This document shows, piece by piece, positions 48,495-64,000 of a stretch of DNA of 64,000 nucleotides. The position numbers were made by a program, and so were the translations under genes. Origin of the DNA: Orbaceae bacterium ESL0727 (GTDB lineage: Bacteria; Pseudomonadota; Gammaproteobacteria; Enterobacterales; Orbaceae). The stretch lies in contig JAQTHY010000001.1 of NCBI GenBank assembly GCA_029433345.1, positions 868,001-932,000 on the forward strand, in the 5' to 3' direction. How positions within the stretch are numbered: the first letter of the stretch is position 1; every line of letters begins with the position of its first letter. The notes under the pieces are model-generated. The model searched no databases. It was not told the origin of the DNA and saw only the letters and a list, made by a program, of their open reading frames with translations.

Positions 48495-49394
48495 ATGAAT
48501 TTAAAGCAACTTAAATATTTTCAATTGCTTGCTAAAACACAACATTATACCTCAACCTCAGAATATTTTTCGATTAGCCAGCCTAGTTTAAGTCACTCGA
48601 TTGCCGAACTGGAAAAAGAGGTTGGCATAAAATTATTCCAAAAACGTGGGCGAAATGTCGAATTAACCAAAGAAGGGCGACAGTATCTCACTTATGTTGA
48701 GCAAGCATTGGCGGCTTTGAATGAAGGTGAGCAATTTGTCAAAGAGTTGACCAGTATCTCTAATGGGCATATTGGTTTGGCATTTATCTATTCTATCAGC
48801 GCAAATTATATTCCTAAAATGATCAAAGCGTTTTTAAGTCATCCTGAAAATAAAAATATTACTTTTTCATTTTATGAAGGATTATCACAGCAAATTGTCG
48901 ATGGGCTGAAAAATAAACGTTTTGAGATCGGTATCTGTTCACAGCTGCATGATGAACCTGATATTCATTTTCAAAAATTAGCCAAGCAAGAGTTGGTTTT
49001 TATCATTTCCAATACGCATCCTTTATCTAAACGCAAAAAATTAGCATTGAAAGATATTATTCATGAACCGCTGATTTTGTTTACTGAGCGCAGTGGTATG
49101 AAGAATGTGATCGATACTATGTTTGAGAAAGCGGGTATTAAGCCCAATGTGGCTTGTCTTGTTGAAACTGAAGGGGCAATGATGGGATTGGCATCGATTA
49201 ATTATGGGATTGGTATTATGCCGAGAGTCTCTATTCCGGAAGAATTTAATGTCACGTTAGTGCCGATGAATAAAAATGATCAAAAGCGCGATATTTTTAT
49301 TGCTACTATGGCCAATCGACCACTTTTACCCGCTGCACAAAAGTTCTACCATTTTTTAATTGAAAATAGTGATGATGCGATTTTTGGCCGATAA
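48495..49394 (+). CDS. LysR-family transcriptional regulator
   Basis: 299 residues. Winged helix-turn-helix at about 1-60 (MNLKQLKYFQLLAKTQHYTSTSEYFSISQPSLSHSIAELEKEVG, then LFQKRGRNVELTKEG), and a LysR substrate-binding domain from about 90 to 295. It heads the quinate/shikimate gene region on the same strand, so a shikimate-pathway effector is a reasonable guess. The close CynR/CysB-like relatives cannot be told apart by eye. Confidence 0.88.
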   Translation: MNLKQLKYFQLLAKTQHYTSTSEYFSISQPSLSHSIAELEKEVGIKLFQKRGRNVELTKEGRQYLTYVEQALAALNEGEQFVKELTSISNGHIGLAFIYSISANYIPKMIKAFLSHPENKNITFSFYEGLSQQIVDGLKNKRFEIGICSQLHDEPDIHFQKLAKQELVFIISNTHPLSKRKKLALKDIIHEPLILFTERSGMKNVIDTMFEKAGIKPNVACLVETEGAMMGLASINYGIGIMPRVSIPEEFNVTLVPMNKNDQKRDIFIATMANRPLLPAAQKFYHFLIENSDDAIFGR

Positions 49395-49537
49395 GTTAGC
49401 ACAGAGTTCCCTTCTTTTCGGAATAAGTGTTATGATAAATTTGAAAATAGCGCCATTTTAATCGCTTTGATATCGCATTATTATTGCTTGAATATGGTCG
49501 ATCTTTACTTTATTTGTAACTTACACAAGGAGTTAAT

Positions 49538-50368
49538 ATGAGTCAGTTTACACCTTATAGTATATACGGAATTATTGGTTACCCACTTGGACATAGTATG
49601 AGTCCGCTTATTCATACCATGTCGTTCCAAGATTATAATATTCCAGCCGTATTGGTTCCTTTCCCTATGCCTTCTGAAGATATTCCGACTCTTTTTAAAT
49701 CAATTCGACTATTAAATATTCGTGGTTTATGTGTCACTATTCCTCATAAACAGACGATTATTCCTTATTTAGATGAAGTCACTGATCGCGTCAAAAAAGC
49801 GGGGGCAGCAAATCTTATTTATTGGGATGGCGATAAATTGTGCGGTGATAATACTGATATTATTGGTTTTATGGAGCCATTACGTCACAAAAATCTGAGT
49901 GCTGATTATAAAAAAGTGTTATTACTTGGCGCAGGTGGTGCGGCGCGAGCTGCAGTGGTTGGTTTACATGATCTTGGCTATACCGATATTACCGTTACCG
50001 ATATTGTCGATGCGTTACCTAATGCTTTGGCGGCAGAATTTAATTTGAAGGTAGTGCCATGGGACAAGCGTAATGAAGTTGAAGCACAAATTATTGTCAA
50101 TGCAACGCCATTAGGTATGCAAGGTAAGTTTGAAACAGAAACAGCTTATGAACAGTCTTGGTTCAAAGGTAAAGGTGTGGCCTATGATATCGTTTATACG
50201 CCGTACCATACTTGCTTTAGAAATGCAGCCGAAAAAGCGGGATGGGAATCTATTTCGGGTCGTGATATGTTCATTGGCCAAGCGAATGCGCAATTTAAAA
50301 TTTGGACTGGCAAAGATCTTTCTGTCCGCGCTAAACAAGCCGTTATTGATGCACTAGCAGGAAAATAA
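49538..50368 (+). CDS. Shikimate/quinate dehydrogenase, AroE family
   Basis: 276 residues. Substrate domain: GYPLGHSMSP (S20, S22 bind the carboxylate), catalytic K71 in VTIPHKQ and D107 in GDNTDI. NAD(P) domain: LLGAGGAARA followed by ITVTDIVDAL at the end of strand 2. Here an Asp replaces the NRT motif that binds the NADP phosphate in biosynthetic AroE, so NAD use is predicted. It oxidises shikimate (or quinate) to the 3-dehydro acid, or the reverse. AAGGAG 7 bases before the ATG. Probably a catabolic paralogue, with the housekeeping aroE elsewhere. Confidence 0.88.
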   Translation: MSQFTPYSIYGIIGYPLGHSMSPLIHTMSFQDYNIPAVLVPFPMPSEDIPTLFKSIRLLNIRGLCVTIPHKQTIIPYLDEVTDRVKKAGAANLIYWDGDKLCGDNTDIIGFMEPLRHKNLSADYKKVLLLGAGGAARAAVVGLHDLGYTDITVTDIVDALPNALAAEFNLKVVPWDKRNEVEAQIIVNATPLGMQGKFETETAYEQSWFKGKGVAYDIVYTPYHTCFRNAAEKAGWESISGRDMFIGQANAQFKIWTGKDLSVRAKQAVIDALAGK

Positions 50369-50378
50369 GGGGATTTTT

Positions 50379-50732
50379 ATGACTAATGTAGAATTGCAAG
50401 CGTATCGCCGCTTTTTGATGTTGAAAATATCGGAAGCGAGTCAATATGTGGGTAAAACCGAACCTAGCGTTTGGCGTGAATGGGAACAAGGTTCACAGCC
50501 GGTGCCTGAATTTGTTGCAAATGCAATGAATGAATTAAAAAGACAGCGGAATGATAAAATTAATATCATTATTAATGGTATTAATGATCGCGTAGGGAGC
50601 AGTTCTATTCGTTATTTTATGACTTATGAAGAGTTTCATAAAATGAATCCTAATTTGGATCTGATTCAATGGCGATTACATCAATCTATCGCCACAGAAC
50701 TTTACTTTAGAGGGCTTGAAAAGCTCTGTTAA
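50379..50732 (+). CDS. ydiL: YdiL-like helix-turn-helix protein (DUF1870 type)
   Basis: 117 residues. It follows E. coli YdiL: an N-terminal helix-turn-helix region (about 5-45, LQAYRRFLMLKISEASQYVGKTEPSVWREWEQGSQPVPE), then IIINGINDRVG and a conserved tail DLIQWRLHQSIATELYFRGLEKLC. Relatives include Aca2-type DNA-binding proteins. It lies 10 bp after the shikimate dehydrogenase and is followed by a terminator. In E. coli ydiL sits at the head of the ydiM-ydiN-ydiB-aroD locus, so this association is conserved. A regulatory role is inferred. Confidence 0.8.
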   Translation: MTNVELQAYRRFLMLKISEASQYVGKTEPSVWREWEQGSQPVPEFVANAMNELKRQRNDKINIIINGINDRVGSSSIRYFMTYEEFHKMNPNLDLIQWRLHQSIATELYFRGLEKLC

Positions 50733-50747
50733 GTTTGGGGTGCTAAT

Positions 50748-50787
50748 ATGGGGCTTATTGCCGTTGGCTATGCCCCATTTATTTTTG
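50748..50787 (+). terminator. Terminator after the ydiL-like gene
   Basis: ATGGGGC/GCCCCAT stem with an inner GCC/GGC pair, followed by TTATTTTTG. It ends the shikimate dehydrogenase-ydiL unit. Confidence 0.7.
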
Positions 50788-50939
50788 TCCATTTACCATT
50801 CTGATAAATATCATATCAACAAACCCAGCCATTTTCTGGATTCCCTTTTTCTCTTGTTATCGTTTTGGGTTTGATGCAGCGCGTGACATAGGGTCGTTTT
50901 TTTTGCATAAAATCGCGAAAGATTCGAAATAGTTATTAT

Positions 50940-50957
50940 TGTAAATATTAATTTACA
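50940..50957. promoter_or_regulatory. TyrR box upstream of aroL
   Basis: TGTAAATATTAATTTACA is a perfect 18-bp palindrome and a perfect TGTAAA-N6-TTTACA TyrR box. aroL is a classical TyrR-regulated gene in E. coli. It lies about 140 bp before the aroL start. Confidence 0.75.
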
Positions 50958-51011
50958 AAAATATTTAAAAAAATATATATAAATCATAGAAGTAATATAA
51001 CAAGCAAAAAG

Positions 51012-51058
51012 TGTAAAATATTTGTTGCAAATGCGTCATGTAATTACTAGCATAGTAA
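51012..51058. promoter_or_regulatory. Second weak TyrR box and a TTACTA/TAGTAA palindrome before aroL
   Basis: TGTAAA-N6-GTTGCA (51012-51029, 10/12) is a weak TyrR box. A perfect palindrome TTACTA-GCA-TAGTAA (51044-51058) overlaps where the promoter should be; its ACTAG core recalls TrpR half-sites, but the spacing differs. E. coli aroL is controlled by both TyrR and TrpR. Confidence 0.35.
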
Positions 51059-51094
51059 ACAGTTGCATTCTGGTATTTATAAAAAGGATCGAAT

Positions 51095-51616
51095 ATGAAC
51101 CAAACAATTTTTTTAGTCGGTGCCCGTGCTGCGGGTAAAACGACGATGGGAAAGATGTTAGCAAATGCGTTATCATTTTCATTTATTGATACAGATTGCT
51201 ATTTACTCGAAACTACCCAAAAAACGGTTGCCGAAATAGTTGAAAAAGAGGGCTGGGAAGGCTTTAGAGCGCGGGAAAGCTCAGTACTTGTCGAAACTAC
51301 AAAACCTAATCGCGTGATTGCAACCGGTGGCGGCATGGTGCTGGCTAAACATAATCGGGATTTTATGAAACAACACGGAACTGTCCTCTTTTTATCTGCG
51401 CCAGCGGCAATACTTGCAGCGCGATTAATGAAAGATCCGAATGTTGCACAGCGTCCTTCCTTAACTGGCTTATCTATTGTTGATGAGATGGAAAAGGTGT
51501 TGGAAGATCGCATGTCGTTATATCAAGATGCTGCGCATCATGTGCTTGACGTTGCACAAGATGAATCGAAAATTCTTGCGCAAATGTTAAGCGTGCTAAA
51601 TGTTAAAAACGGATAA
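51095..51616 (+). CDS. aroL: Shikimate kinase AroL
   Basis: 173 residues (E. coli AroL 174). It phosphorylates shikimate at the 3-hydroxyl. Walker A G9-ARAAGK-T17, metal/substrate aspartates in IDTD (D32, D34), shikimate-binding R58 in GFRARES, GGG at 78-80 (VIATGGGM), lid region with RPSLTG. The sequence is closer to AroL than AroK (FRARE, VAEIVEKEGWEGF). It stands alone with TyrR-type sites upstream and a terminator after. Confidence 0.95.
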   Translation: MNQTIFLVGARAAGKTTMGKMLANALSFSFIDTDCYLLETTQKTVAEIVEKEGWEGFRARESSVLVETTKPNRVIATGGGMVLAKHNRDFMKQHGTVLFLSAPAAILAARLMKDPNVAQRPSLTGLSIVDEMEKVLEDRMSLYQDAAHHVLDVAQDESKILAQMLSVLNVKNG

Positions 51617-51666
51617 AATCTAACCGAACCGGATGTGTTAACGGCTATAATCCACACCATAAATTC

Positions 51667-51702
51667 AAAGCCTTGTTGAGATATCAATAAGGCTTTTGTT
51701 TT
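51667..51702 (+). terminator. Terminator after aroL
   Basis: AAAGCCTT/AAGGCTTT stem, inner TTGA/TCAA pair, followed by TGTTTTAG. The remaining spacer to 52265 is AT-rich promoter DNA with no recognised gene. Confidence 0.75.
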
Positions 51703-52265
51703 AGTCGCATTGATGAGGTGAGCCGTTATCAAACCGCATGACAATCATCTATAGTGAATCGATGTCCATTCATTGAATGGATAAAATGGATTCTATTGGA
51801 TCTGCATCAACCTAAAGCTGCAATGCGCATTTTTAATGCACAATAAGCCTAAAAGATCGTCATATAAATAACTTTCAGAACGCCTATCCATTTCAATCAA
51901 AACGCTATTTTTTAGGGTAACTAGCATCGTCCAATGAATAGCGCATATCAGACAAAATCTTATTGTTTATCTTATTGTTACTAAAAAAGATGGCGTATAT
52001 TTTATTCGTTTATCATCATCCATAATAGCTGGAAAAAATCAATACAGATCCTGATTTTATTAGCTTCCCCAATTAGAAATTAAATTTATTTTTGTTCGAA
52101 AACATTTAAAATAACTATAGATACGGGTCGAATTATAAATTTTTGTGAAGAATATTAAAATTTCATAATAAATTTAAGCATAATATTTTGTAATTAAGAT
52201 TAACGATTGTATATTGGTTTCAGTTTTATTTTTGAGTTTTTAAATTTTAATTTTGGAGTATGACA

Positions 52266-53465
52266 ATGAATAATCAGCCGATCCATTCTTATGGAATTGT
52301 TGGCTCGATCTATGCAAATTATATTATGCAAAGTATTGCATTAATTGTGATTATGCAATTTTCGACTGACCTTTCTAAACAGCTAAATACCGATATTGTC
52401 GGACTTGGCTATGTTGCCTCGGGTATTGGTATTGGGAAGATATTACTAATGTTTATTGGTGGCGTCCTGTCAGATAAATTTGGACGTAAACCGTTTATCT
52501 ATATTGGTATGCTTTGTTACGTGACCTTCTTTTTGGGGATCACTTTCTGCAATGATATTCATCAAGCCTTCTTTTTAGCGATTATTGTGGGGGCCGGCAA
52601 TTCATTTTTAGATACCGGATCGATGCCGACGTTAACGGAATGTTTCCCGAAATCTGCTGGTACCGCCAGTATCTTGATTAAAGCGTTCATTTCATTAGGT
52701 TCGTTGATTTTGCCGTTAATTGTCTATTTTATTGATGGGCACCATATCTGGTTTGGTTGGGCATTTGTCGGTTTTTCTCTCTATCTATTATTAAATGGTT
52801 TGATTTTAGCACCCCAAAAGTTCCCGTCTAAAGATACCGCGATTACGGGGAATAATGGTGATAGCGATTATTTTATCAGTAAACCTAAATTTTGGTTCGA
52901 AGGTATTTTATTGATCTTGATGGGATTCACCACCACGGCAACCTTTACCGTGATTTGGCAATGGCTACCCGAAATTGCACATCGTGGTGTGGGTATGGAT
53001 GAGCTTTCGGCAAAACAGTTGATTAGCTACTATAGTACGGCATCGATTATTTCTGTTTTCGTCACGTCTTATATCGTTAAAAAAGTGCTACAACCGGTTT
53101 ATTGTATTGTTATTTTGCCACTTCTATCGGCTGCCTTTTTGGCGCTCTTCTTTTTTAATTTAACACCGACTATGTGTTTTATTGCCGCAATCGGTATCGG
53201 TTTTACTGCCGCGGGTGGTGTGTTGCAACTCACATTGGTGGTTATGCAGCAATTATTCCCTAAACGCAAAGGGTTAGCGGTTGGGTGTGTATATACACTC
53301 AGTGGTTTTTCTTACATTATTGTGCCGAGTGTGATTCCTAAGCTGACAATGATTAATGTGAGTTATGCCATTTTGATTGATCTTTTTATCGCCTTGGGCA
53401 GTGTGGTATTAGGGGCAGTTGTCTGTTATCGATTTACGCGAATCGTTGATATGAAAAAAATTTAA
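52266..53465 (+). CDS. MFS transporter, YdiM/YdiN-like (first of a pair)
   Basis: 399 residues from ATG 52266, which has GGAG 7 bases upstream; the ATG at 52260 is too close to it. Twelve predicted membrane helices. GGVLSDKFGRKPFIYIG is the MFS loop 2/3 motif; GAGNSFLDTGSMPTLTECFPKSAGTASILIKAF and GFTAAGGVLQLTLVVMQQLFP are typical of the E. coli YdiM/YdiN pair, which lie beside ydiB-aroD. Likely imports quinate or shikimate (inferred). 32 bp before the second transporter. Confidence 0.85.
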   Translation: MNNQPIHSYGIVGSIYANYIMQSIALIVIMQFSTDLSKQLNTDIVGLGYVASGIGIGKILLMFIGGVLSDKFGRKPFIYIGMLCYVTFFLGITFCNDIHQAFFLAIIVGAGNSFLDTGSMPTLTECFPKSAGTASILIKAFISLGSLILPLIVYFIDGHHIWFGWAFVGFSLYLLLNGLILAPQKFPSKDTAITGNNGDSDYFISKPKFWFEGILLILMGFTTTATFTVIWQWLPEIAHRGVGMDELSAKQLISYYSTASIISVFVTSYIVKKVLQPVYCIVILPLLSAAFLALFFFNLTPTMCFIAAIGIGFTAAGGVLQLTLVVMQQLFPKRKGLAVGCVYTLSGFSYIIVPSVIPKLTMINVSYAILIDLFIALGSVVLGAVVCYRFTRIVDMKKI

Positions 53466-53497
53466 TAGAAATCATTAATTAGTATAGGAACGTTTAA

Positions 53498-54787
53498 ATG
53501 AAAAATAGGTATTTAGGGACGTCGGTCTGTTTATATATTAACTACTTTGTGCATGGTATGGGCGCCATTATTCTGGGCTTAAATGTTGATTATTTAGCCG
53601 CACAATTTAATCCAGAGATCGCTTATTTATTTACTATTGCCAAAGATCTTCTAACGCCTGAGCAAACACGGTTAATTAGCCAGGCTAAAGGGGGCGTTTA
53701 TGATGTGATGGTTGGACTGGGCGTTGGGCGTTTATTGGTTCTGTTTATCATGGGGACACTGTCTGATAAATTTGGTCGTAAACCGTTTATCTTTTTAGGT
53801 GGGCTATTTTATATCGGTTTCTTACTCGGTATTTTAGTCAGTCCGAATGTCCATATCGCCTTTATGTTTGCCGTACTCGGTGGGATTGCTAATTCGACAC
53901 TCGATGCAGGCACCTATCCTGCCTTAATGGAAGCTTTTCCAAAATCTCCGGGTTCTGCGTCTATTTTAACCAAAGCAGCAATTGCGGCCGGTCAATCAGT
54001 GTTACCGATTATTATGGGATTGATTATGGCGGCGCAAGGTTATTATGGTTGGTCATTCTTCTTCTGTTGCGCAATTTTGCTTATCAATGCATTAGTTGTA
54101 TTAAAAATGCCATTCCCGAATTATAAAATTACACCACAACAAGAAGAGAAGGATCTCACTGCGGTCGATACCTCAATGCCAACTCTAAAAACTAAAGCTA
54201 ATTTTTGGATTGAAGGGATCTGCTTTATTCTGATTGGATTTACCTCGACAGCAACATTTTATTTGGTTTCATCTTGTTTAAAAGATTTTTCACAAACTGT
54301 TGCGGGTATGGATGCAGCAGGTGCCGGTTATTCTGTATCTGCATATGGAATCGGTACATTAGCCAGTGTCTTTTTAACAGCTTTCTTGGTTAAAAGTTTG
54401 GTAAGACCCGTCTATATTGTTGTGTTGTATCCACTTCTTTCAACCTTAATGCTTATCACACTTTATCTCAATCCAACACCAATGATGTGTGTTGTGGCTG
54501 GTTTTGTTTTAGGATTTACTGCTGCAGGTGGGGTATTACAATTGGCCTTAACAACTATGGCGGAATTCTTCCCATCCGGTAAAGGGAAAGTGCTTGGTAT
54601 CTTCTTTACGTCATCAAGTGTGGCGACGGCGACGATTCCATTTTTAATTGGTTATATTTCGAAGAATTTCGATCTGCGTTATGTGATGTTAAGTGATGCT
54701 GTTATTGCCGGTTTCGGAACATTATTAGCCGTGATTGTTTTAATTCGTTATCGCACAATCTTTAATTTCCCGAAAAAAAGTGCGTAA
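53498..54787 (+). CDS. MFS transporter, YdiM/YdiN-like (second of a pair)
   Basis: 429 residues, about twelve helices; clearly paralogous to the gene before it: MGTLSDKFGRKPFIFLGGLFYIGFLLGI, ANSTLDAGTYPALMEAFPKSPGSASILTKAAIAAGQS, GFTAAGGVLQLALTTMAEFFPSGKGKVLGIFF. It has an insert of about 20 residues after helix 1 (FNPEIAYLFTIAKDLLTPEQTRLISQAKGG) that the first lacks. The tandem pair suggests two related substrates or uptake/antiport. A double terminator follows. Confidence 0.86.
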   Translation: MKNRYLGTSVCLYINYFVHGMGAIILGLNVDYLAAQFNPEIAYLFTIAKDLLTPEQTRLISQAKGGVYDVMVGLGVGRLLVLFIMGTLSDKFGRKPFIFLGGLFYIGFLLGILVSPNVHIAFMFAVLGGIANSTLDAGTYPALMEAFPKSPGSASILTKAAIAAGQSVLPIIMGLIMAAQGYYGWSFFFCCAILLINALVVLKMPFPNYKITPQQEEKDLTAVDTSMPTLKTKANFWIEGICFILIGFTSTATFYLVSSCLKDFSQTVAGMDAAGAGYSVSAYGIGTLASVFLTAFLVKSLVRPVYIVVLYPLLSTLMLITLYLNPTPMMCVVAGFVLGFTAAGGVLQLALTTMAEFFPSGKGKVLGIFFTSSSVATATIPFLIGYISKNFDLRYVMLSDAVIAGFGTLLAVIVLIRYRTIFNFPKKSA

Positions 54788-54803
54788 TTTTTATTAACTT
54801 CTC

Positions 54804-54877
54804 GATTCCACTGACGTGAGTGGAATCTATCAAAAAAGGCGACTTATCAGCGTTGATTGGTCCGCCTTTTCTATTTT
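54804..54877 (+). terminator. Hairpin plus terminator after the MFS pair
   Basis: GATTCCACT/AGTGGAATC (54804-54827, 9-bp stem), then AAAAGGCG/CGCCTTTT (54834-54870) followed by CTATTTT. The second is flanked by A- and T-runs and could stop both strands. Confidence 0.7.
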
Positions 54878-54961
54878 CCTTTCATTTTAATTGATTTCAT
54901 CCTAACTACGGTTACCGTGAATGCAGTGATAACCGTTGGTTATAAGCAGATGTTTGATATA

Positions 54962-54999
54962 AACGTAAATTTGACATAAACGTATAGTAGTTCTGAAAC
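54962..54999 (-). repeat. Dispersed 28-38 bp repeat, copy F (reverse)
   Basis: On the minus strand: GTTTCAGAACTAC, TATACGTTTATGT, CAAATTT, then a partial second unit ACGTTTATATCAA (54949-54961). It lies 31 bp beyond the rsmB stop. Confidence 0.75.
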
Positions 55000-55030
55000 T
55001 TCATAATCATATTTATGGGTATTTAGGCCG

Positions 55031-56323
55031 TTACTGTTTTTGTAAAACGGCATAGAAGAAACCATCACCACTATTTTCGGCCGGTAAAAGCTGTTTGAAT
55101 TCACCTTGCGCTTTAGCATCAGTTTGTGTTTGTAAAAAGCGTGTAATTTGCCATTTATTTTCGTCTGGTAGCACTGAGCAGGTTGCGTAAACTAATGTTC
55201 CACCCGGTTTTAGGTAATCCCAAATTTTAGTTAAAATTGTTTGCTGTAACGTGACAAGCTGGGCAATATCGTCATCGCGGCGTAGCCATTTTATATCTGG
55301 ATGACGGCGGATAACTCCGGTGGCTGAACAAGGGGCATCGAGTAAAATACGATCAAAACGTTTGCCACTGCACCACTGTTCGGGGGTAGTGCCATCGCCA
55401 ACCATCACTTCTGCCCGTAAATTTAAGCGAGTCAGGTTTTCACTAATGCGTTTGGTTCGCCCTGCATCGACATCTACCGCGAATACATGTGCGTTAGGAG
55501 CCATTTCTAAAATATGGGTTGTTTTGCCGCCAGGTGCCGCACAGAGATCTAATATTAACTCACCATCTTTGGGTGCCAAGAGATAGGCGGCATATTGGGC
55601 AGAGAGATCTTGTACGGTCACACTGCCTTGCGCAAAGCCGGGTAAATTATTGACATTAGTCGGGGTCAGTAATCGTAATGCTGACGGTATATTGGGATCG
55701 CGTTCAGCCGCAATATCGTGCTCTGCCAATAGCTGTTGGTATTGGCTTGCCGTATAGTGGATTTGATTCACCCGCAACCACATAGGTGGTTTTTGATTAT
55801 TGGCATGAACAATGTTTTTCCACTCATCGGGATAGGCCTGTTCAAGGCGTTTTAATAGCCAACTTGGTTGTAATGATTGTAAAGCAGCGGTTTGGTTTCT
55901 AAATTGCTGATGTAGTTCGGGTTGTTGGCGTAAAAATTCACGCAATACACCATTAATTAAGCCTTTTAAGTTGGATTTTTTTAAGCTATCAACGGCACCT
56001 ACTGTTTCGCCTACTGCGGCATGCTGCGGAATACGAGTGTATAGAATTTGGTAAAGCCCTACCAGCAGAAGATAATGTAAAATCCGATTTTTACCGGTTA
56101 ACACTTTGGCCATTAAGGTTTTTAGATAAAAATTGAGTTCGGGTAAAACACGCATCACACCAAAACAGATCTCTTGCATTAATGCGCGATCTCGCTCAGT
56201 AAGATGATGTGTTAACTGCGGTAAGATAGCTGTGAGTGATTCGCCTTGTTCGACGACCTGACACGTTGCTTGCGCACAAAGTGCACGGATATTGGGATAG
56301 GTTTTATGGATCGGTTTATTCAT
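55031..56323 (-). CDS. rsmB: 16S rRNA m5C967 methyltransferase RsmB
   Basis: 430 residues. N-terminal NusB-like RNA-binding domain (about 1-140), C-terminal SAM-dependent methyltransferase: LDLCAAPGGKTTHILEMAP (motif I), VDVDAGRTKRISENL, DAPCSATGVIRRHPDIKW (motif IV Cys) and YATCSVLPDENKWQITRFL (catalytic Cys). In E. coli it is part of fmt-rsmB-trkA; here it sits alone within the quinate/shikimate region on the opposite strand. Confidence 0.95.
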   Translation of the reverse strand: MNKPIHKTYPNIRALCAQATCQVVEQGESLTAILPQLTHHLTERDRALMQEICFGVMRVLPELNFYLKTLMAKVLTGKNRILHYLLLVGLYQILYTRIPQHAAVGETVGAVDSLKKSNLKGLINGVLREFLRQQPELHQQFRNQTAALQSLQPSWLLKRLEQAYPDEWKNIVHANNQKPPMWLRVNQIHYTASQYQQLLAEHDIAAERDPNIPSALRLLTPTNVNNLPGFAQGSVTVQDLSAQYAAYLLAPKDGELILDLCAAPGGKTTHILEMAPNAHVFAVDVDAGRTKRISENLTRLNLRAEVMVGDGTTPEQWCSGKRFDRILLDAPCSATGVIRRHPDIKWLRRDDDIAQLVTLQQTILTKIWDYLKPGGTLVYATCSVLPDENKWQITRFLQTQTDAKAQGEFKQLLPAENSGDGFFYAVLQKQ

Positions 56324-56432
56324 GGTTTATGGCCATTACCCTTTTTAATGGTTGATTTGCCTTGCCGCTTTTATCGATAAATGATCTATTGATTTTGCTT
56401 TACCCGATATGCGGCATTCATATTATGATTAA

Positions 56433-57776
56433 TTATAAAATCAATGAGCCTAACCAACCAGCAATAAAAAGTGGAATATTAAAATGGATAAAAGTTGGAA
56501 TGACGCTATCGCGGATATGGTCATGTTGCCCATCGGCATTTAGCCCAGCAGATGTGGCTAATATGGTATCGGATGGCGGTGAACCGGCGTCACCAATTGC
56601 GCCAGATGCACCAATTAAGCAGACAGTCGCAATAGGTGAAAAACCTAATTGTATACAAAGTGGCACGTAGATAGCGGTAATAATGGGAACCGTCGAAAAT
56701 GAGGATCCTATACCTAGTGTGATAACCAGTCCGACCAGCATCATCATGAACGCCGCCACCGCTTTATTCTCACCAAACATTGCCGCACTATTGATCACTA
56801 AAGGTTCGATACTGTGCGTCGCTTTTAGGACTTCGGCAAAGCCTTGTGCCGAAATCATCACAAAACCAATGGTTGCCATCATTTTGACACCATCGGTAAA
56901 TACACCATCGGCTTCGCCCCATTTGATTGAGCCCGAGGCAATAAAACAGATAAAACCAATTAATGCCCCAAGAATCATCGAGCCAGTATAGAGTTGTGCT
57001 GCAAATGAGAGCACGATTGCGCCTAAGGCAATTAAGAGTGAGCGGGGACTGACATTATCGAATTGGGTTGTGACAGGCCCTTCGTGGATTAATTTATAAG
57101 CTCTGGGTCTGCGATAGGTGATAAAAATGGAGCAAAGCAGTCCTAAGAACATGCCTAATGCCGGAATTGCCATGGCGTGCATCACATTGACATGACTGAC
57201 ATCCATGCCTGATGCGGTAATATTTTTTAATAAAATTTGATTTAAAAAGATATTTCCAAAGCCAACCGGTAAAAACATATAGGGGGTGACGAGGCCAAAG
57301 GCAATAATACAGGCCATCATTCGCCTATCTAGTTGCAGGCGTGACATCACATATAATAATGGCGGAATTAATAATGGAATAAAGGCGATATGAATTGGGA
57401 TCACGTTTTGGGAAGAGATACTCACTAAGGCAATGAGAATAATCAGTGTCCATTTTATCCGTGTTTTAGCACCACTTGAGGTTAACTGTTTTATCACTTT
57501 ATGGGCTAATAGTTCGGGTAATCCGGATTTCGAAATAGCGACGGCAAAGGCACCGAGCATCGCATAAGAAAGAGCAATATTGGCACCATTGCTGATCCCG
57601 GTATTGAACGCATCTAAGGTCTCTTTTAATGTCAAGTGACCACAAAGTCCACCAATAAAGGCACCCAAAATCAAACTAATCACCACATGTACGCGGCAGA
57701 GCGACAAAGTTAACATACAGATAACCGCGAGTACAACGGCATTAAAGGGGTAAATTGCATTAAATAGATCGGTCAT
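56433..57776 (-). CDS. Na+/H+ antiporter NhaC/YuiF-type transporter
   Basis: 447 residues and about twelve membrane helices. The pattern GISNGANIALSYAMLGAFAVAISKSGLPELL, SSQNVIPIHIAFIPLLIPPLL and GASGAIGDAGSPPSDTILATSAGLNADGQHDHI fits the Na+/H+ antiporter-like family that includes YuiF and several amino-acid or organic-acid carriers. The real substrate is unknown. It stands alone; no LysR partner. Confidence 0.75.
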   Translation of the reverse strand: MTDLFNAIYPFNAVVLAVICMLTLSLCRVHVVISLILGAFIGGLCGHLTLKETLDAFNTGISNGANIALSYAMLGAFAVAISKSGLPELLAHKVIKQLTSSGAKTRIKWTLIILIALVSISSQNVIPIHIAFIPLLIPPLLYVMSRLQLDRRMMACIIAFGLVTPYMFLPVGFGNIFLNQILLKNITASGMDVSHVNVMHAMAIPALGMFLGLLCSIFITYRRPRAYKLIHEGPVTTQFDNVSPRSLLIALGAIVLSFAAQLYTGSMILGALIGFICFIASGSIKWGEADGVFTDGVKMMATIGFVMISAQGFAEVLKATHSIEPLVINSAAMFGENKAVAAFMMMLVGLVITLGIGSSFSTVPIITAIYVPLCIQLGFSPIATVCLIGASGAIGDAGSPPSDTILATSAGLNADGQHDHIRDSVIPTFIHFNIPLFIAGWLGSLIL

Positions 57777-58294
57777 AATCTCACGAGAAAGAAAGAAATA
57801 AATAATTATATAAATTAGCTGGATAAATTAATGAATGATAATTATTTGATAAAAAACAAGGGTGACATTTTAGGGGATGGGGGCGTAAAGTGCAATGTTT
57901 ATGCGTCGCACTTTGGCGGAAATATCAAAATACCGAATTCTCCAATAAAATTAAAATAGTATCGCCCTATATTTTGCACACCTTGCTGGCGACCGTCATC
58001 GCGGAAATAAAACGCGATCACCCGCAAAATTCTTTCTAACACTTCCTTTTTATGGAATCTTTTTTAATGAATTTTTTACGTGAGAACCGATACGGTAGTT
58101 TTCACATGATAAAGAAAATAACTGTCTGAACTGATAAGATTTTGTTGATAATGATCCCATTTTTTAAAAATTTATCTTTCTTTTCTTGAAAAATTGACAA
58201 TAAATGGCTATTTTAATTGATAGATATTTTTAATGAAATTTGCTCTATTTATAGAATTTATGTAATAGATAAAATGAGTCTTGAGGAGAAAGCG
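57777..58294. other. Spacer with promoters for the antiporter and the TIM-barrel/ydiB unit
   Basis: 518 bp between divergent genes. It holds a hairpin AAAGTGC/GCACTTT (57887-57914) and the dyad described at 58080-58105. No gene seen. Confidence 0.4.
58080..58105. promoter_or_regulatory. Candidate operator dyad
   Basis: GTGAGAAC...GTTTTCAC (7/8 symmetric) with CCG-ATA-CGG inside, about 190 bp before the TIM-barrel gene. It looks like a regulator site; the protein is unknown. Confidence 0.3.
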
Positions 58295-59116
58295 ATGTCA
58301 GAACGTCCTATTGGTTTAGCTGCGTTAACGGTATTAGATGTTTCACCGGCTAATCAAGTTATCGTTGCCGCTGAAGCGGGTTATACTCATGTTGGATTGC
58401 GACTTATTCCGGCCACCCCGACTGAACCTGTTTATGCGACTGTCGGTGATACTCCTCTTATTCGTGAAGTTGAGCACCGTCTTAAAGAGACCGGTGTTAA
58501 AGTATTAGATGTTGAGATTTTCCGGTTAAAACCCGATACGCGTGTGATTAATTTTTTACCTGTTCTGGAAACCGGTGCGCGGCTGGGTGCCAGTCAGGTT
58601 CTCCTGGCGGGTAATGATCCCGATGCGAATCGTTTAGCCGATAATTTTGCTGCACTGTGCGAAATTGCTGCGCCATTAGGGATAGCGATTAATATCGAAC
58701 CGATGCCGTGGACCAATGTGCCGAGTGTTAATTCGGGAACTGAGCTTTTAAAGAAGGCCAATCAAAGTAATCAAGGTATGATTATTGATCCATTGCATTT
58801 TGATCGTGGACCCAATACGTTAGAAGATTTAAAGAAAGTGCCGAAAGATTGTTGGCGTTATATGCAGTTATGCGATGGTACCAAAGAAAAACCAAAAGAT
58901 ACGGAAGGCTTGTTGTATCAAGCTCGTAACTATCGTTTATCGCCGGGATGGGGGGGGATTGATTTAGTTTCGCTTTTAAAAGCGCTACCCGAAATGCCTA
59001 TTTCTATCGAGTGTTGTAATGATGAGTTAGCCTTATCCAAATCGCCAATTGAAAGAGCCAAAATGTATATTGCTGATACGCGCGCATTACTAAAACGTGT
59101 GGCAGATGAAGCGTAA
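58295..59116 (+). CDS. Sugar isomerase/epimerase-like TIM barrel (possible dehydroshikimate dehydratase)
   Basis: 273 residues from ATG 58295, with GAGGAG 7 bases upstream; an upstream in-frame ATG has no such site. Xylose-isomerase-like TIM barrel with metal ligands at expected positions: E135 (NIEPMPW), D165 and H168 (IDPLHFD), Q191 (YMQLCDG), E239 (ISIECCNDE). The superfamily includes hydroxypyruvate isomerase, IolE and 3-dehydroshikimate dehydratase. Neighbours ydiB and aroD make 3-dehydroshikimate a plausible substrate, which would give protocatechuate. This assignment is inference; a hydroxy-acid isomerase is equally possible. Confidence 0.75.
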   Translation: MSERPIGLAALTVLDVSPANQVIVAAEAGYTHVGLRLIPATPTEPVYATVGDTPLIREVEHRLKETGVKVLDVEIFRLKPDTRVINFLPVLETGARLGASQVLLAGNDPDANRLADNFAALCEIAAPLGIAINIEPMPWTNVPSVNSGTELLKKANQSNQGMIIDPLHFDRGPNTLEDLKKVPKDCWRYMQLCDGTKEKPKDTEGLLYQARNYRLSPGWGGIDLVSLLKALPEMPISIECCNDELALSKSPIERAKMYIADTRALLKRVADEA

Positions 59117-59358
59117 CGATACTTTATTAACATTTTATACACATTACACTTGATAGCCGACCAGTAGAATGATTAGATCATCAGCGAACTGGATAAGATC
59201 TGATAAAGTTCAGCTATTTTGTTGTTAATCATCAATAGGAAACGTGGCTATTTAGGCGGCAAGTGGTGAGACGTATTAAGACCCTATTAGAAACTTGATA
59301 TTATAGAAATTAAGATTATAGAAATTAACATTATAAAAACTATGTTCGGAGCACAATA

Positions 59359-60231
59359 ATGAGAGAAAAGATTGACGGTCATTTTTTATTGATCGGTTTG
59401 ATGGCATACCCTATTCGCCACAGTTTATCCCCACAAATGCAAAATACGATCTATTCTAAATTAAATATTCCTTATGTTTATTTAGCCTTTGAAGTAGATC
59501 AAGAAAAATTACCCGATGCAATCAAAGGGATGAAAGCATTAGGGTTGCGTGGTACTGCGGTATCTATGCCAAATAAACAGTTAGTTTGCCAATATCTTGA
59601 TAAGTTAACACCAGCAGTTGAGATGAGTGGCGCGTGTAATACGATTTCTAACGATGACGGTGTGTTAACCGGTTATAACACCGATGGTATCGGTTATATG
59701 CGCATGCTAAAAGAGGCCAATGTTAATGTTATTGGCAAAAAAATGACCATTCTTGGTGCCGGTGGTGCCGCTACTGCTATCGTAGTTCAGGCTGCCCTTG
59801 ATGGTGTGAAAGAGATTTCGATTTTTAATCAAAAAGATGACTGTTATCCAAAAATCGAAGCGGTAGCGAAAAAATTAAATGCCAATACAGCGTGCAAAGT
59901 GCATGTTTTTGATCTTGCTGATAAAGAAAAACTTCGCCAAGAAATTGCCAGTAGCTCTGTGCTTTGTAATGCAACTGGCGTTGGCATGAAACCTTTGGAA
60001 GGGCAAAGCCTTATTACTGATCCGACGATGTTACGACCTGATTTAGTTGTGACAGATTGTATCTATAGTCCACGTAAATCTAAATTGCTCGAAATTGCTG
60101 AAAAAGCGGGGTGTAAGACTCTCAATGGTATTGGCATGATGTTATGGCAAGGTGCGGCACAAATTAAGGTTTGGACGGGTGAAGATGCGCCAATCGAATA
60201 TGTAAAAGAAAAAATGGGATTTAATGATTAA
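59359..60231 (+). CDS. ydiB: Quinate/shikimate dehydrogenase YdiB
   Basis: 290 residues (E. coli YdiB 288) with the same layout: LIGLMAYPIRHSLSPQMQ (S22, S24), VSMPNKQ (catalytic K73), GYNTDG (D109), dinucleotide loop LGAGGAATA, strand-2 end FNQKDD, NGIGMMLWQGAAQ. YdiB oxidises quinate or shikimate with NAD or NADP. Here the Asp-rich FNQKDD replaces the Arg-containing FNRRDE of E. coli, which favours NAD. It lies 242 bp after the TIM-barrel gene, with ATTATAGAAATTAA tandem units in the gap, and 109 bp before aroD. Confidence 0.93.
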   Translation: MREKIDGHFLLIGLMAYPIRHSLSPQMQNTIYSKLNIPYVYLAFEVDQEKLPDAIKGMKALGLRGTAVSMPNKQLVCQYLDKLTPAVEMSGACNTISNDDGVLTGYNTDGIGYMRMLKEANVNVIGKKMTILGAGGAATAIVVQAALDGVKEISIFNQKDDCYPKIEAVAKKLNANTACKVHVFDLADKEKLRQEIASSSVLCNATGVGMKPLEGQSLITDPTMLRPDLVVTDCIYSPRKSKLLEIAEKAGCKTLNGIGMMLWQGAAQIKVWTGEDAPIEYVKEKMGFND

Positions 60232-60340
60232 TCCGATTCATTGATGTTACGTGACGTAAAAATTAAGAAGAAATAGGGCATTGCTTTATAAAATCCCGTT
60301 ACTATTTTTTAGAACGAATTATTTTTAGATAGGGTCGAAT

Positions 60341-61105
60341 ATGAAAACCATCACCATTAAAAACCTTGAAATTGGCAGTGGTGCGCCAAAAATCATAGTG
60401 CCTATTGTCGGTAAGACAGAAGCGGAATTATTAAGCGAAGTGGCTTTTTTGCAATCGATAGACTTTGATGTTTTAGAGTGGCGTGTTGACCATTTTTCGC
60501 AAGTTGATGATATTGATGCAGTAAAAGCGGTGGCAAAAAAAATCAGAGATTTGCTACCGATAAAACCTATTTTATTTACGTTTAGAACCGCTAATGAAGG
60601 TGGTGTCAAACCTTGGCCACTTATCAATTATATTGAGCTCAATAACGCAATGGCCTGTAGTGGATTAGTGGATCTGATTGATGTCGAAGTATTTATTGGC
60701 GATGATCATGTGAAGGATATTATTCGTGTTGCTCATCAACATCAGGTCGTAGTTGTGACGTCTAATCATGATTTTGATAAGACACCACCAAAAGACGAAA
60801 TTATTGCGCGGTTACGTAAAATGCAGGATTTAGGTGCAGATATTCCTAAAATTGCCGTCATGCCAAGAACTACTGAGGATGTATTGACATTATTGGCCGC
60901 CACAACCGAGATGAAAGAGCAATATGCTACGCAGCCGCTAATTACCATGTCTATGGCTGGGCTTGGTGCAATAAGCCGCGTTGCTGGAACGACATTTGGT
61001 TCGGCGATGACTTTTGGTGCCGCTAAAAATGCTTCGGCGCCTGGTCAATTAGATGTTAAAGCATTGCGCTATATTTTAGATGTGCTTTATCACAGCTATG
61101 CCTAG
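60341..61105 (+). CDS. aroD: Type I 3-dehydroquinate dehydratase AroD
   Basis: 254 residues (E. coli 252). It interconverts 3-dehydroquinate and 3-dehydroshikimate through a Schiff base. Catalytic residues fall at the E. coli positions: E46 and R48 (LEWRVD), H143 (SNHDFDKTP), K170 (DIPKIAVMP). Next to ydiB as in E. coli. With quinate dehydrogenase upstream it can run in the catabolic direction. Confidence 0.95.
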   Translation: MKTITIKNLEIGSGAPKIIVPIVGKTEAELLSEVAFLQSIDFDVLEWRVDHFSQVDDIDAVKAVAKKIRDLLPIKPILFTFRTANEGGVKPWPLINYIELNNAMACSGLVDLIDVEVFIGDDHVKDIIRVAHQHQVVVVTSNHDFDKTPPKDEIIARLRKMQDLGADIPKIAVMPRTTEDVLTLLAATTEMKEQYATQPLITMSMAGLGAISRVAGTTFGSAMTFGAAKNASAPGQLDVKALRYILDVLYHSYA

Positions 61106-61150
61106 GATAGTGAGATTCAGTTAGGCGTAGTTTAGAGCTATGTTTAGACG

Positions 61151-61175
61151 TAAACGGGGTGCGTTGCCCCATTTA
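61151..61175 (+). terminator. Hairpin after aroD
   Basis: TAAACGGGG/CCCCATTTA stem with one mismatch and a 7-base loop, followed by TGTTGCTTATTTTGTTG. Its right arm (GCCCCATTTAT) resembles the terminator after the ydiL-like gene. Confidence 0.5.
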
Positions 61176-61273
61176 TGTTGCTTATTTTGTTGTCATCGCG
61201 ATGAATTGATGCACATACCGGTAGTTGCCGAGTAATAACAGATTAACGATAAATTAATGTATTGGAGTATTTT

Positions 61274-62125
61274 ATGAGTAATGGTTGGTTAGAACTAGAA
61301 AATGATGTTTGTGTGATTACTGGCGCAGTAGGTGGTATGGGATTAGAAATTAGCCGCGAATTTGCTAAACAGAAAGTTAACCTAGTCTTGATTGATCTCG
61401 ATGAAGCGAAATGTCAACAGTTTGCACAAGAACTCGCCAGTGAATATGGTATTAAAGCAATCGGACTTATCTGTAATACGACAGATGAAGCGAGTGTTGA
61501 TGCGGCTGTGGCAAAAGTAAAAGAAACCTTTGGGCGTTGCGATATTTTAGTCAATACTGCGGCTATTTTGCGTTTTTGTCCTCTTGAAGATCTGCCATTA
61601 GATGAATGGAATGCCACAATTAATGTTAACATGACCGGTTATTTTTTAATGTCACAACGTTTTGGTCGTTTGATGATCGAACAAAAATCAGGACGTATGG
61701 TGCATATCTCAACAGTTGCATCACATACGCCAGAAACTTACAGTGGTGCATATAGTGCCACCAAAGCAGCTATTTCGATGTTGTCAAAACAGATCGCGGC
61801 TGAATGGGGACAATTTGGTATTCGCAGTAATGCTGTGTGCCCATGCTTTGTTAAAACACCATTATCGCGTAAGTTCTATGAAGATAAAGAAGTTGAAGAT
61901 GGTCGTACTCGCATGATCGCCAGTCGTCGAATCGGTGAGACTCGTGATATCGCTAATGCCGTTTTATATCTCGCCAGTCGCCGTTCAGACTACTCTAATG
62001 GCACAGAATTAGTGGTAGATGGGGGATATGAAGTGATGTTAGGTGATTTAGTCCCTCGCCCTGGTGGTCGACGCCAATTTGCAATACAACAACATGCCGC
62101 AGCGCAAGAAGCGAAAAAGAAATAA
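61274..62125 (+). CDS. Short-chain dehydrogenase/reductase (SDR)
   Basis: 283 residues from ATG 61274 (TGGAG 7 bases upstream). Classical SDR: cofactor loop TGAVGGMG (16-23), LIDLDEAKCQQ with an acidic residue after strand 2 (NAD preference expected), NTAAIL, Ser in HISTVASHT, catalytic Y160-SAT-K164, C-terminal LYLASRRSDYSNGTELVVDGGYEV. A C-terminal Arg/Gln/Ala tail is added. The context suggests it oxidises or reduces a ring hydroxyl of a quinate/shikimate-derived acid; the substrate is not known. Confidence 0.85.
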   Translation: MSNGWLELENDVCVITGAVGGMGLEISREFAKQKVNLVLIDLDEAKCQQFAQELASEYGIKAIGLICNTTDEASVDAAVAKVKETFGRCDILVNTAAILRFCPLEDLPLDEWNATINVNMTGYFLMSQRFGRLMIEQKSGRMVHISTVASHTPETYSGAYSATKAAISMLSKQIAAEWGQFGIRSNAVCPCFVKTPLSRKFYEDKEVEDGRTRMIASRRIGETRDIANAVLYLASRRSDYSNGTELVVDGGYEVMLGDLVPRPGGRRQFAIQQHAAAQEAKKK

Positions 62126-62163
62126 TTGTTACTGATTAAATTTTAAAAATAGATCATTTGATT

Positions 62164-62194
62164 AATGGCTCTTGTTTTTTAGACAAGGGCCATT
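62164..62194. other. Hairpin between the SDR and flavoenzyme genes
   Basis: AATGGC-T-CTTGT pairs with ACAAG-G-GCCATT around TTTTTTAG. No T-tract follows. The rest of the 327-bp spacer 62126-62452 is AT-rich without a recognised gene and may carry a separate promoter for the flavoenzyme. Confidence 0.45.
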
Positions 62195-62452
62195 GAAGTT
62201 TGTGTTAATTTATAGATAAATTAAATAATTCTTATAAAATAGATGAAAATATTTTATCAATTAACCTTTTTATCAGTATTACTTTGTAAAATGATGGGAT
62301 AGAAAAAACAAGCTTTTATAAGCTGTTAACGGATGCCCATCGATTTTTCATGCACGTTTATGCGTAATGCGTTGAGACCTTGTGTAGTTTGTTAAGCGAT
62401 TTTTAGCAATCGATAACAAAATTGATATAAAAATTAATTAAAGGAGAAAAAT

Positions 62453-64000
62453 GTGAATAATTTTTCTGCAATATTTGAGCCCATAGTGATTAATCGGACT
62501 CCTATTCGTAACCGTATTGTGATGCCACCTATGGGAAGTAATTATGCGACATTAAATGGCGAAATTGTCGAAGATCATATTCAATATTATGAGCAACGCG
62601 CTAAGGGCGGCACCGGATTAATTATTCTTGAAAATGTCTGTGTGGATTTCCCTTATGGTACCAATGGGACGACACAACTTCGTTTGGATAATGATCAATA
62701 TATTCCAGGCCTTTATAATTTTACTGAACGTATGCATAAGCATGGTGCATCGGTTGCGGTGCAGATTAACCATGCCGGTGCGTCGGCGTTTCCTGGTCGT
62801 TTAAATGGATTACAGCCGATATCTTCTTCGAATATTCCTTCTAAAACAGGTGGTAATATTCCAAGACCCGCGACCTTAGATGAAATTCATCATGTGGTAA
62901 AACAGTATGGTTTAGCGGCTAAACGTGCGCAGCGTGCTGGATTTGACGCGGTTGAAATTCATGCCGGTCACTCTTACCTATTGAGCCAATTTATCTCACC
63001 ACTTTTTAATAAACGAACTGATGAGTTTGGTGGCTGTGCTGAAAATCGTGCACGTTTAGCTCGTATGGTTATTGATGAAATCAGAGCGCAAGTAGGGCCA
63101 TTTTTTCCTATTTTATTACGTGTTAGTGCTACCGATTTTATTGAAGGGGGCGCGACATTAGAAGATACATTAGAAATCCTCACCTATCTTGATGAAGGTG
63201 TCGATGTTTTTGATATTTCAGCTGCACAAAACGATACTATCCAATATCAGATCGATGAAATGAATCTGCCTGATGGTTGGCGTGCATATATGGCCAAAGC
63301 GGTACGTGATAAATTTAAAAAAATTACCATTGCTTCGGGTAATTTCCGTGATCCAGCTATTGTGACCAAAGCACTTGAAGAAGGGGCAGCCGATTTGATT
63401 GTTTTAGGGCGTGGGCTGATTGCAGAACCTTATTGGGTGGAAAAAGTACGAAATAATGAGGTTGATACATTACGCAAATGTATTTCGTGTAATATCGGTT
63501 GTGCCGATCACCGTATTGCGCGTGCTAAACCGATTCGTTGTACAATTAATCCTGATGTCATTAGTTATGAAGATTATAAACATTATCAGGTTAGCGTTCC
63601 CCTTAATATTGTTGTGGTTGGCGGTGGTAGTGCTGGGCTTGAAGCGGCTTGTACAGCAGCTGAAGTGGGGTGTAATGTAACGCTGTTTGAAGAGAAGTCC
63701 TTTTTAGGGGGATTATCAACGATGATCTCACGTTTTCCTTATAAAAAGCGGATTGCAGATTTACCTAAATTCTTAGTGAATCGTGCCAGCACATTATCGA
63801 ATTTAGAAATCAAACTTAACACCAAAGCGACACCTGAAATTATCGACGCTTTAAAGCCAGATTTAGTTGTCAGCGCAACCGGTTCTAAACCACTCTTGCC
63901 ACCGATAAAAGGGTTACGAGAACAATTATCGGCGCCAAATAGGAAAGTTTTTTCTATTTTCGATATTATGAATAATTTTGCACAGTTTACCGATATTCCT
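62453..64000 (+). CDS. NADH:flavin oxidoreductase of the 2-enoate reductase/FadH type (C-terminus off the window)
   Basis: 516 residues visible, from GTG 62453: AAGGAG is 6 bases upstream, and the ATG two bases earlier runs at once into TGA. N-terminal FMN-binding TIM barrel (about 1-335): IRNRIVMPPMGS, VQINHAGA, EIHAGHSYLLSQFISPLFNKRTDEFGG, LIVLGRGLIAEP. A 4Fe-4S site follows with C343, C346, C350 and C363 (CISCNIGC...RCTINP). Then an FAD/NAD(P) domain with VVVGGGSAGLEAA (from about 382). This is the three-cofactor architecture of 2,4-dienoyl-CoA reductase, BaiCD and 2-enoate reductases, which reduce conjugated C=C bonds. Shikimate-type acids have such a bond; that substrate is hypothesis. 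Confidence 0.88.
   Translation, partial: MNNFSAIFEPIVINRTPIRNRIVMPPMGSNYATLNGEIVEDHIQYYEQRAKGGTGLIILENVCVDFPYGTNGTTQLRLDNDQYIPGLYNFTERMHKHGASVAVQINHAGASAFPGRLNGLQPISSSNIPSKTGGNIPRPATLDEIHHVVKQYGLAAKRAQRAGFDAVEIHAGHSYLLSQFISPLFNKRTDEFGGCAENRARLARMVIDEIRAQVGPFFPILLRVSATDFIEGGATLEDTLEILTYLDEGVDVFDISAAQNDTIQYQIDEMNLPDGWRAYMAKAVRDKFKKITIASGNFRDPAIVTKALEEGAADLIVLGRGLIAEPYWVEKVRNNEVDTLRKCISCNIGCADHRIARAKPIRCTINPDVISYEDYKHYQVSVPLNIVVVGGGSAGLEAACTAAEVGCNVTLFEEKSFLGGLSTMISRFPYKKRIADLPKFLVNRASTLSNLEIKLNTKATPEIIDALKPDLVVSATGSKPLLPPIKGLREQLSAPNRKVFSIFDIMNNFAQFTDIP

Follow-up and report, generated by a model that had tools for sequence, protein, structure and literature searches.

Among the closest described counterparts of the gene island treated here are the ydi-aroD locus of Escherichia coli and the quinate/shikimate loci of Listeria. 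In E. coli K-12, ydiL, ydiM, ydiN, ydiB and aroD lie side by side, with no adjoining LysR gene and without genes for a TIM-barrel protein (TIM), a short-chain dehydrogenase/reductase (SDR) or a flavoenzyme. The island occupies positions 48495-64000 of the window, that is, of the whole 64,000-nucleotide stretch that was analysed (G000:C1:868001-932000 in the 2.15 Mb genome of Orbaceae bacterium ESL0727, whose genus mates include Gilliamella). YdiL, two carriers of the major facilitator superfamily (MFS), YdiB and AroD are all represented in it, but their genes are split by rsmB, an antiporter gene and extra genes, among them those for TIM, SDR and flavoenzyme, which we call the accessory triad. 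Gene names were checked against Pfam and NCBIfam. All the genes listed in a preliminary description of this stretch were found, its family names agree with these databases, and its comparison with E. coli is correct. That description also proposed one dedicated 15 kb system for plant quinate and shikimate. The unity of the system turned out to be wrong, as AroE1, AroL and AroD are most likely biosynthetic. What stands is that the triad, with a QuiR-like regulator, is a separate and dispensable set that goes beyond biosynthesis, and that related gene sets accompany quinate/shikimate genes in Listeria, Klebsiella and Ligilactobacillus salivarius.

The likeness to Listeria covers LysR, TIM, flavoenzymes of the old yellow enzyme (OYE) type, a YdiB-like shikimate dehydrogenase (SDH), AroD and two MFS carriers, distributed there over two loci that we take to be qui1 and qui2. 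The Listeria innocua record reads LysR-OYE-SDH-AroD, with 60% (SDH), 57% (AroD) and 59% (flavoenzyme) identity to the window's proteins, and the Listeria monocytogenes record, which is unannotated there and was read by similarity, LysR-TIM-OYE-SDH-MFS-MFS. The combination typical of such loci, a YdiB-like SDH together with AroD and an OYE-type flavoenzyme, is found in the island. The differences are that the Listeria set is split, that the loci read hold no SDR, and that the Listeria TIM is of another subfamily (25% identical to the window's). In Klebsiella pneumoniae the order is OYE-SDH-MFS-AroD-LysR-MFS, with a flavoenzyme orthologue at 54% identity, and on the L. salivarius plasmid pMP118 (LSL_RS09875-09910) it is MFS-MFS-LysR-TIM-SDR-FAD enzyme-SDH-AroD, with identities of 64% (SDR), 55% (SDH) and 43% (AroD). 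Judged by these comparisons, the island is a variant of the Listeria-type qui system in which an SDR shared with a lactobacillus is added and the TIM is of a different subfamily.

We now consider the distribution of the triad, which is the solid new result of this work. Each accessory protein was searched in 44 Orbaceae genomes, presence being called at full length and at least 87% identity for TIM, at full length and at least 72% for the flavoenzyme, and at E ≤ 1e-60 and at least 86% for the SDR. At these thresholds each protein is intact in 14 of the 44 genomes (the next best flavoenzyme match is at most 35% identical). The carriers are identical for all three (G000, G001, G003, G011, G016, G027, G028, G029, G034, G036, G038, G040, G042 and G043), and in no genome is just a part of the triad intact. 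Twelve of the carriers are among the 39 genomes that are at least 90% complete and at most 5% contaminated; G032, G033 and G035 are incomplete, and little weight can be put on absence there. The chance of two 14-genome sets coinciding would be 8.7e-12 if the genomes were independent, but they are related, and the better argument is therefore the comparative evidence from genera, scattered loci and remnants.

Carriers and non-carriers both occur within four genera. In G042 and G043 the triad genes are far apart and none adjoins aro genes, YdiB-AroD lying elsewhere. The SDR gene is there flanked by the gene for RNase II and purE (the latter identified by scan in G042 and by eye in G043), the TIM gene of G043 by tilS and rpoH, and a LysR gene is divergent to the flavoenzyme gene in both. 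Remnants are found as well: G010 retains fragments of TIM, SDR and flavoenzyme, and G023 of TIM, SDR, the second MFS carrier and AroL. Broken TIM pieces occur in eight genomes, namely G006, G010, G015, G023, G031 and G035, and as second copies in G003 and G036. The LysR regulator (E ≤ 1e-60) is present in 17 of the 44 genomes, which are the 14 carriers together with G010, G023 (where it contains a stop) and G031, three genomes that hold TIM remnants.

The module genes are under purifying selection (window against four other loci), most strongly TIM; the ratios of nonsynonymous to synonymous differences (pN/pS) against the L041 locus are 0.044 for TIM, 0.102 for the SDR and 0.109 for the flavoenzyme. 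Recent transfer as the cause of the high TIM identity is unsupported, because in four comparisons the synonymous sites are near saturation (pS 0.67-0.75) and pN is low (0.03-0.07), which points to constraint. Transfer of the whole island within Orbaceae is nevertheless likely, since in G003 (L079 and L080) a native YdiB-AroD locus that contains TIM debris is accompanied by a second, complete Frischella-like island. This arrangement suggests that G003 lost the island and then acquired it again.

Turning to the genes that are probably not part of the module, a genome-wide search for separate housekeeping copies of aroD/aroQ found none: AroD is the only type I 3-dehydroquinate dehydratase found, and no type II enzyme was detected by a search whose control was positive in 7 of 14 genomes. 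The genome has three Shikimate_dh_N proteins, two of them in the island. Since the third (L007:2649-3479, G000:C1:1475200) is HI0607-like (PRK12550, 438.9 bits) and not a classic AroE, AroE1 is probably the housekeeping enzyme. For AroD and AroE1 the island thus largely holds the only copies in the genome, which is at odds with its being wholly dedicated to catabolism. For shikimate kinase, a stronger SKI match than AroL lies at C1:442784 and a weak third at C1:622299.

Across the family, aroB (3-dehydroquinate synthase) was found in all 44 genomes, G000 included. An AroE1-like match (31-35% to YdiB) is found in 41, orthology being confirmed by AroE1's own sequence where the loci were read (12 genomes), and a YdiB match of at least 66% in 37. 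The island's YdiB-like enzyme is 60% identical to the Listeria and Klebsiella SDH and 56% to E. coli YdiB. Of the genomes that lack YdiB and the module, G002 retains AroE1-YdiL-AroL-AroD plus LysR debris, and G030 retains AroE1, AroL and fragments of YdiL and of the first MFS carrier. The possibility that all the genes are catabolic was rejected in view of the unique AroD and of the persistence of AroE1 in these two genomes. As AroD is unique and AroE1 outlasts YdiB and the module, the most likely role of AroE1, AroL and AroD is in biosynthesis, which is also the role of aroD in E. coli.

The regulator has its best PDB match, through the effector domain, in 5TED (E 3.4e-49), the shikimate-bound QuiR (Lmo0488) of Listeria, and is 46% identical to the LysR of the L. 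innocua OYE-SDH-AroD locus. By these matches it is classified as a QuiR-type regulator.

The flavoenzyme combines Oxidored_FMN and Pyr_redox_2 domains with a four-cysteine motif and the tyrosine expected of the OYE/FadH type. Its His170/His173/Tyr175 and Cys343/346/350/363 are invariant in 17 of 17 aligned sequences. The His-x-x-His-x-Tyr pattern matches the OYE 5ogt, whereas 1ps9 (2,4-dienoyl-CoA reductase) and 6qkg (NCR) are without the histidine pair; presumably these residues act as elsewhere in the family, with the tyrosine as proton donor. Enzymes of this type normally reduce C=C bonds. The best NCBIfam match, BaiCD, is below its curated cut-off (457.7 vs 825 bits). The closest flavoenzyme from outside Orbaceae (61%) is encoded on a Paenibacillus plasmid.

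The SDR was found at E ≤ 1e-65 in only 1 of 369 genomes drawn from the class, its own, in a first pass that scored at most six candidates per genome. A match of 64% identity occurs in 28 Ligilactobacillus plasmid records, and 11 further plasmid records match below 60%. Being rare in the class and matched on these plasmids, the SDR appears to be shared between Orbaceae and lactobacilli. Four PLSDB records (NZ_CP030101, CP125156, NZ_CP095725 and NZ_OP378649) are filed as plasmids, although their content or size is chromosome-like. The 44 genomes were also searched for a second flavoprotein resembling the one of L. salivarius. None was found in G000 at E ≤ 1e-20; matches in 34 genomes fall in larger frames (819-1022 codons) at no more than 38% identity and were rejected. 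Frames of ca 820-1020 codons that join OYE-like and FAD_binding_2-like matches occur in many genomes of the genus, for example at G016:C6:216786-219527.

Among solved structures, Lmo2234 is nearest to TIM both in sequence profile and in fold, followed by IolI and QuiC. TIM shares Glu134, Asp164, Gln190, Glu238 and His167 with both QuiC and the Lmo2234 orthologue; the three acidic residues align as the metal ligands of dehydroshikimate dehydratases. The ligands listed for AsbF in one report are Glu142, Asp172 and Glu253 (PMC9324987). TIM scores 29.5 bits on the NCBIfam QuiC equivalog, a model of a two-domain enzyme with a cut-off of 1200 bits, on which Pseudomonas QuiC reaches 1276.7. Gln190 as a mark of dehydratases was dropped: IolI has a histidine there, but an active-centre histidine is also listed for AsbF and QsuB.

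The surroundings of TIM relatives were compared in 22 loci that a genome scan gave outside Orbaceae (Pseudomonas, Halomonas and their kin). TIM itself was counted in 21, a Rhizobium-like FAD_binding_2 dehydrogenase in 15 and QuiC in 13 (both within 10 kb of the TIM relative), AroQ in 10, some shikimate dehydrogenase in 13 and an SDR related to the window's in 3; the QuiC and AroQ queries pass their curated cut-offs. Rhizobium sullae has SDH-SDR-TIM-FAD-FAD-NIPSNAP, with an SDR only 31% identical to the window's, and in Paraburkholderia SDR, FAD enzyme, NIPSNAP and TIM are together. The FAD enzymes of these two match 4-oxocyclohexanecarboxylate desaturases and 3-ketosteroid dehydrogenases, below cut-off, as though a similar ring chemistry were run there in the oxidising direction. 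With QuiC, AroQ and FAD dehydrogenases nearby, the TIM relatives keep company with hydroaromatic-acid metabolism. The island shares with the aerobic QuiC pathway of Pseudomonas and Halomonas the dehydrogenase and dehydratase of the first steps, but has no two-domain QuiC. A Klebsiella record (L121, CP125156.1, ca 1079-1085 kb) has TIM-FAD-NIPSNAP-SDH near yajL and cyo, the FAD genes matching only in pieces.

We can now formulate a mechanism. It starts from what is observed: the gene content, the co-occurrence of the triad, the association with regulator and quinate genes, the intact active-site residues and the purifying selection. The reading we favour, to which we give a little less than even chances, is that the island combines housekeeping genes (AroE1, AroL, AroD) with a facultative module that would use plant quinate and shikimate reductively, as an electron sink. 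In this scheme, substrate, transport, induction, direction, order and product would be as follows. LysR would sense shikimate and turn the module on, and the MFS carriers may import quinate and shikimate, an uptake role that the preliminary description had also assumed. YdiB would oxidise quinate to 3-dehydroquinate, or shikimate to 3-dehydroshikimate, and AroD would dehydrate 3-dehydroquinate to 3-dehydroshikimate. The flavoenzyme, with NADH, would then reduce the C=C bond of the 3-dehydroshikimate enone, so that the ring could not aromatise, and the SDR would reduce the ketone to dihydroshikimate. Alternatively, by the C4-proton chemistry of dehydroshikimate dehydratase, TIM might take the C4 proton and expel the C5 hydroxyl, removing one more water, after which two further hydride steps would give 3,4-dihydroxycyclohexanecarboxylate. 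The balances would be quinate + NADH to dihydroshikimate + water, or quinate + 2 NADH to the dihydroxy acid + 2 water. Each quinate would serve to re-oxidise one to two NADH and so give a fermenting gut bacterium an outlet for electrons.

More tentatively still, TIM, SDR and flavoenzyme under the QuiR-like regulator may be the genetic basis of reductive quinate/shikimate fermentation as such, an NADH sink in which ene-reduction avoids aromatisation, with variants in Orbaceae and lactobacilli and an oxidative mirror image in the Pseudomonas, Halomonas, Paraburkholderia and Rhizobium relatives. Whiting and Coggins reportedly described the quinate/shikimate metabolism of lactobacilli in 1971, with products that reportedly match the proposed chemistry; no genes are assigned to that metabolism in the literature matches listed. 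Likewise, neither the module nor genes for hydroaromatic reduction are described among the open-licence matches listed, subscription journals being mostly outside that search. The physiology of the gut fits the electron-sink reading, since several bee gut members use up quinate, a pollen acid (PMC5726620), and cytochrome bd is given as the only quinol oxidase found in 95 Gilliamella genomes (PMC11325843).

A number of observations weigh against the reductive scheme. Given the relatedness of the 44 genomes, the co-occurrence does not amount to 44 independent trials. TIM has only 25% identity with the Lmo2234 orthologue and 24% with QuiC. SDR genes are absent from the Listeria and Klebsiella loci that were read, so the SDR would be dispensable in some forms of the pathway. 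On pMP118 the flavoprotein is FMN_bind + FAD_binding_2 and not OYE, and the TIM belongs to the Lmo2234 subfamily (55% to it, 23% to the window's). Around the Paenibacillus flavoenzyme gene no SDH, AroD, LysR, TIM or SDR is annotated within 9 kb, so other settings exist. No operator motif common to the LysR, TIM, SDR and flavoenzyme genes emerged when 99 upstream regions were searched by a crude 4+4 dyad scan. E. coli ydiM has reportedly been linked to the bo3 oxidase, which weakens the guess of transport. Finally, the Gilliamella survey lists quiA, whose product oxidises shikimate in a quinone-linked manner, for 7 of 95 genomes, and identifies no quinate transport genes in those seven (PMC11325843).

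The serious rival to the reductive reading is a Listeria-like route to protocatechuate, in which TIM would be a QuiC2-like dehydratase that aromatises 3-dehydroshikimate, the flavoenzyme and the SDR acting on side products or other dietary enones. The QuiR-controlled Listeria genes reportedly serve protocatechuate biosynthesis (Prezioso 2018), and QuiC2 has reportedly been described as a Listeria class of dehydroshikimate dehydratase, of which TIM could simply be a member; both reports also count against the reductive reading. The structural neighbours of TIM, its five shared residues and the gene order of the presumed qui1 locus (LysR-TIM-flavoenzyme-SDH-MFS-MFS) all agree with this route. 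However, in the 13 of 22 loci where a true QuiC is near the TIM relative, a second ordinary dehydratase would be superfluous and the relative is unlikely to be one. The low identities quoted above speak against this route too, and the co-occurring SDR and flavoenzyme are left without explanation. On balance we consider it unlikely, though not remote.

A different plant or host enone as the target of the triad, with proximity to the aro genes being positional only, is improbable. The scattered triad of G042 and G043, the Paenibacillus orthologue without nearby aro genes, and BaiCD, a bile acid enzyme, as the best (sub-threshold) NCBIfam match would all be accommodated, but the flavoenzyme is still paired with the QuiR-like LysR in G042 and G043, and parts of the set accompany SDH and AroD in Ligilactobacillus, Listeria and Klebsiella. 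Slightly more doubtful again is oxidative scavenging, in which the module would turn saturated hydroaromatic acids of neighbouring lactobacilli into 3-dehydroshikimate for aromatic biosynthesis: AroE1, AroL and AroD in the same island, the SDR common to lactobacillus and the TIM relatives near 3-ketosteroid dehydrogenase-like enzymes would suit it, but OYE/FadH-type enzymes normally work in the reducing direction, and, with aroB in every genome, the early part of the aromatic pathway seems to be retained.

If the module is indeed reductive, it would supply candidate genes for the quinate/shikimate metabolism of lactobacilli, studied since at least 1971, give a role to the flavoenzymes of the Listeria and Klebsiella quinate loci, and predict in which gut strains plant acids serve as electron acceptors. 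The 44-genome pattern supplies pairs of carriers and non-carriers.

The layout of the island is given in Table 1. As stated in the preliminary description, all genes are on the plus strand except two; this minus-strand pair is unrelated to the rest.

Table 1. Features of the island, in positions of the window.
Feature	Position	Strand	Remarks
LysR regulator, QuiR-like	48495..49394	+	best PDB match 5TED
AroE1, probable housekeeping shikimate dehydrogenase	49538..50368	+	TIGR00507 203.9 bits, barely over cut-off of 200.2
YdiL/Aca2-like protein (Aca2_YdiL)	50379..50732	+	PF08965 115 bits; 35% to E. coli YdiL
AroL shikimate kinase	51095..51616	+	NF002988 237.6 bits, cut-off 161
First MFS carrier, YdiN/YdiM-like, predicted	52260..53465	+	35% to YdiN, 33% to YdiM
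Second MFS carrier, YdiM-like, predicted	53498..54787	+	41% to YdiM
rsmB	55031..56323	-	named by eye; unrelated to island
Na+/H+ antiporter	56433..57776	-	unrelated to island
TIM-barrel protein, accessory module	58295..59116	+	sugar-isomerase / dehydroshikimate-dehydratase fold
YdiB-like quinate/shikimate dehydrogenase	59359..60231	+	PRK12749 394.9 bits, cut-off 349
AroD, 3-dehydroquinate dehydratase	60341..61105	+	250.6 bits, cut-off 139.3
SDR, accessory module	61274..62125	+	64% to L. salivarius pMP118 SDR
Terminator-like hairpin between SDR and flavoenzyme genes	62162..62196	+	16 pairs, T-rich tail
Flavoenzyme, accessory module, OYE/FadH/BaiCD type, 4Fe-4S motif	62453..64000	+	Oxidored_FMN + Pyr_redox_2

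The flavoenzyme gene extends ca 0.5 kb beyond the window, the product being 680 aa in the full genome. For TIM, the open reading frame (ORF) list has an upstream TTG at 58217, while its relatives begin at the later ATG (58295). The intergenic gaps are 109-643 bp, save two of 10 and 32 bp, and a second terminator-like hairpin is found at 51667-51696, downstream of AroL. The number of terminator-like sites, 15 as compared to 13.5 in shuffles, is not above chance. The wide gaps and the hairpins argue for several transcription units, and together with the two inserted minus-strand genes they led us to reject a single 15 kb operon. The longest gap (51617-52259, 643 bp), which separates AroL from the first MFS gene and includes the hairpin at 51667-51696, contains no listed ORF of at least 90 aa. 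After the flavoenzyme gene come plsB, rpsL, rpsG, fusA and tuf (named by eye), and past these ribosomal and elongation-factor genes, downstream of the island, lies an SsuA-like ABC transporter set with another SDR of 255 aa (L005:12114-15785).

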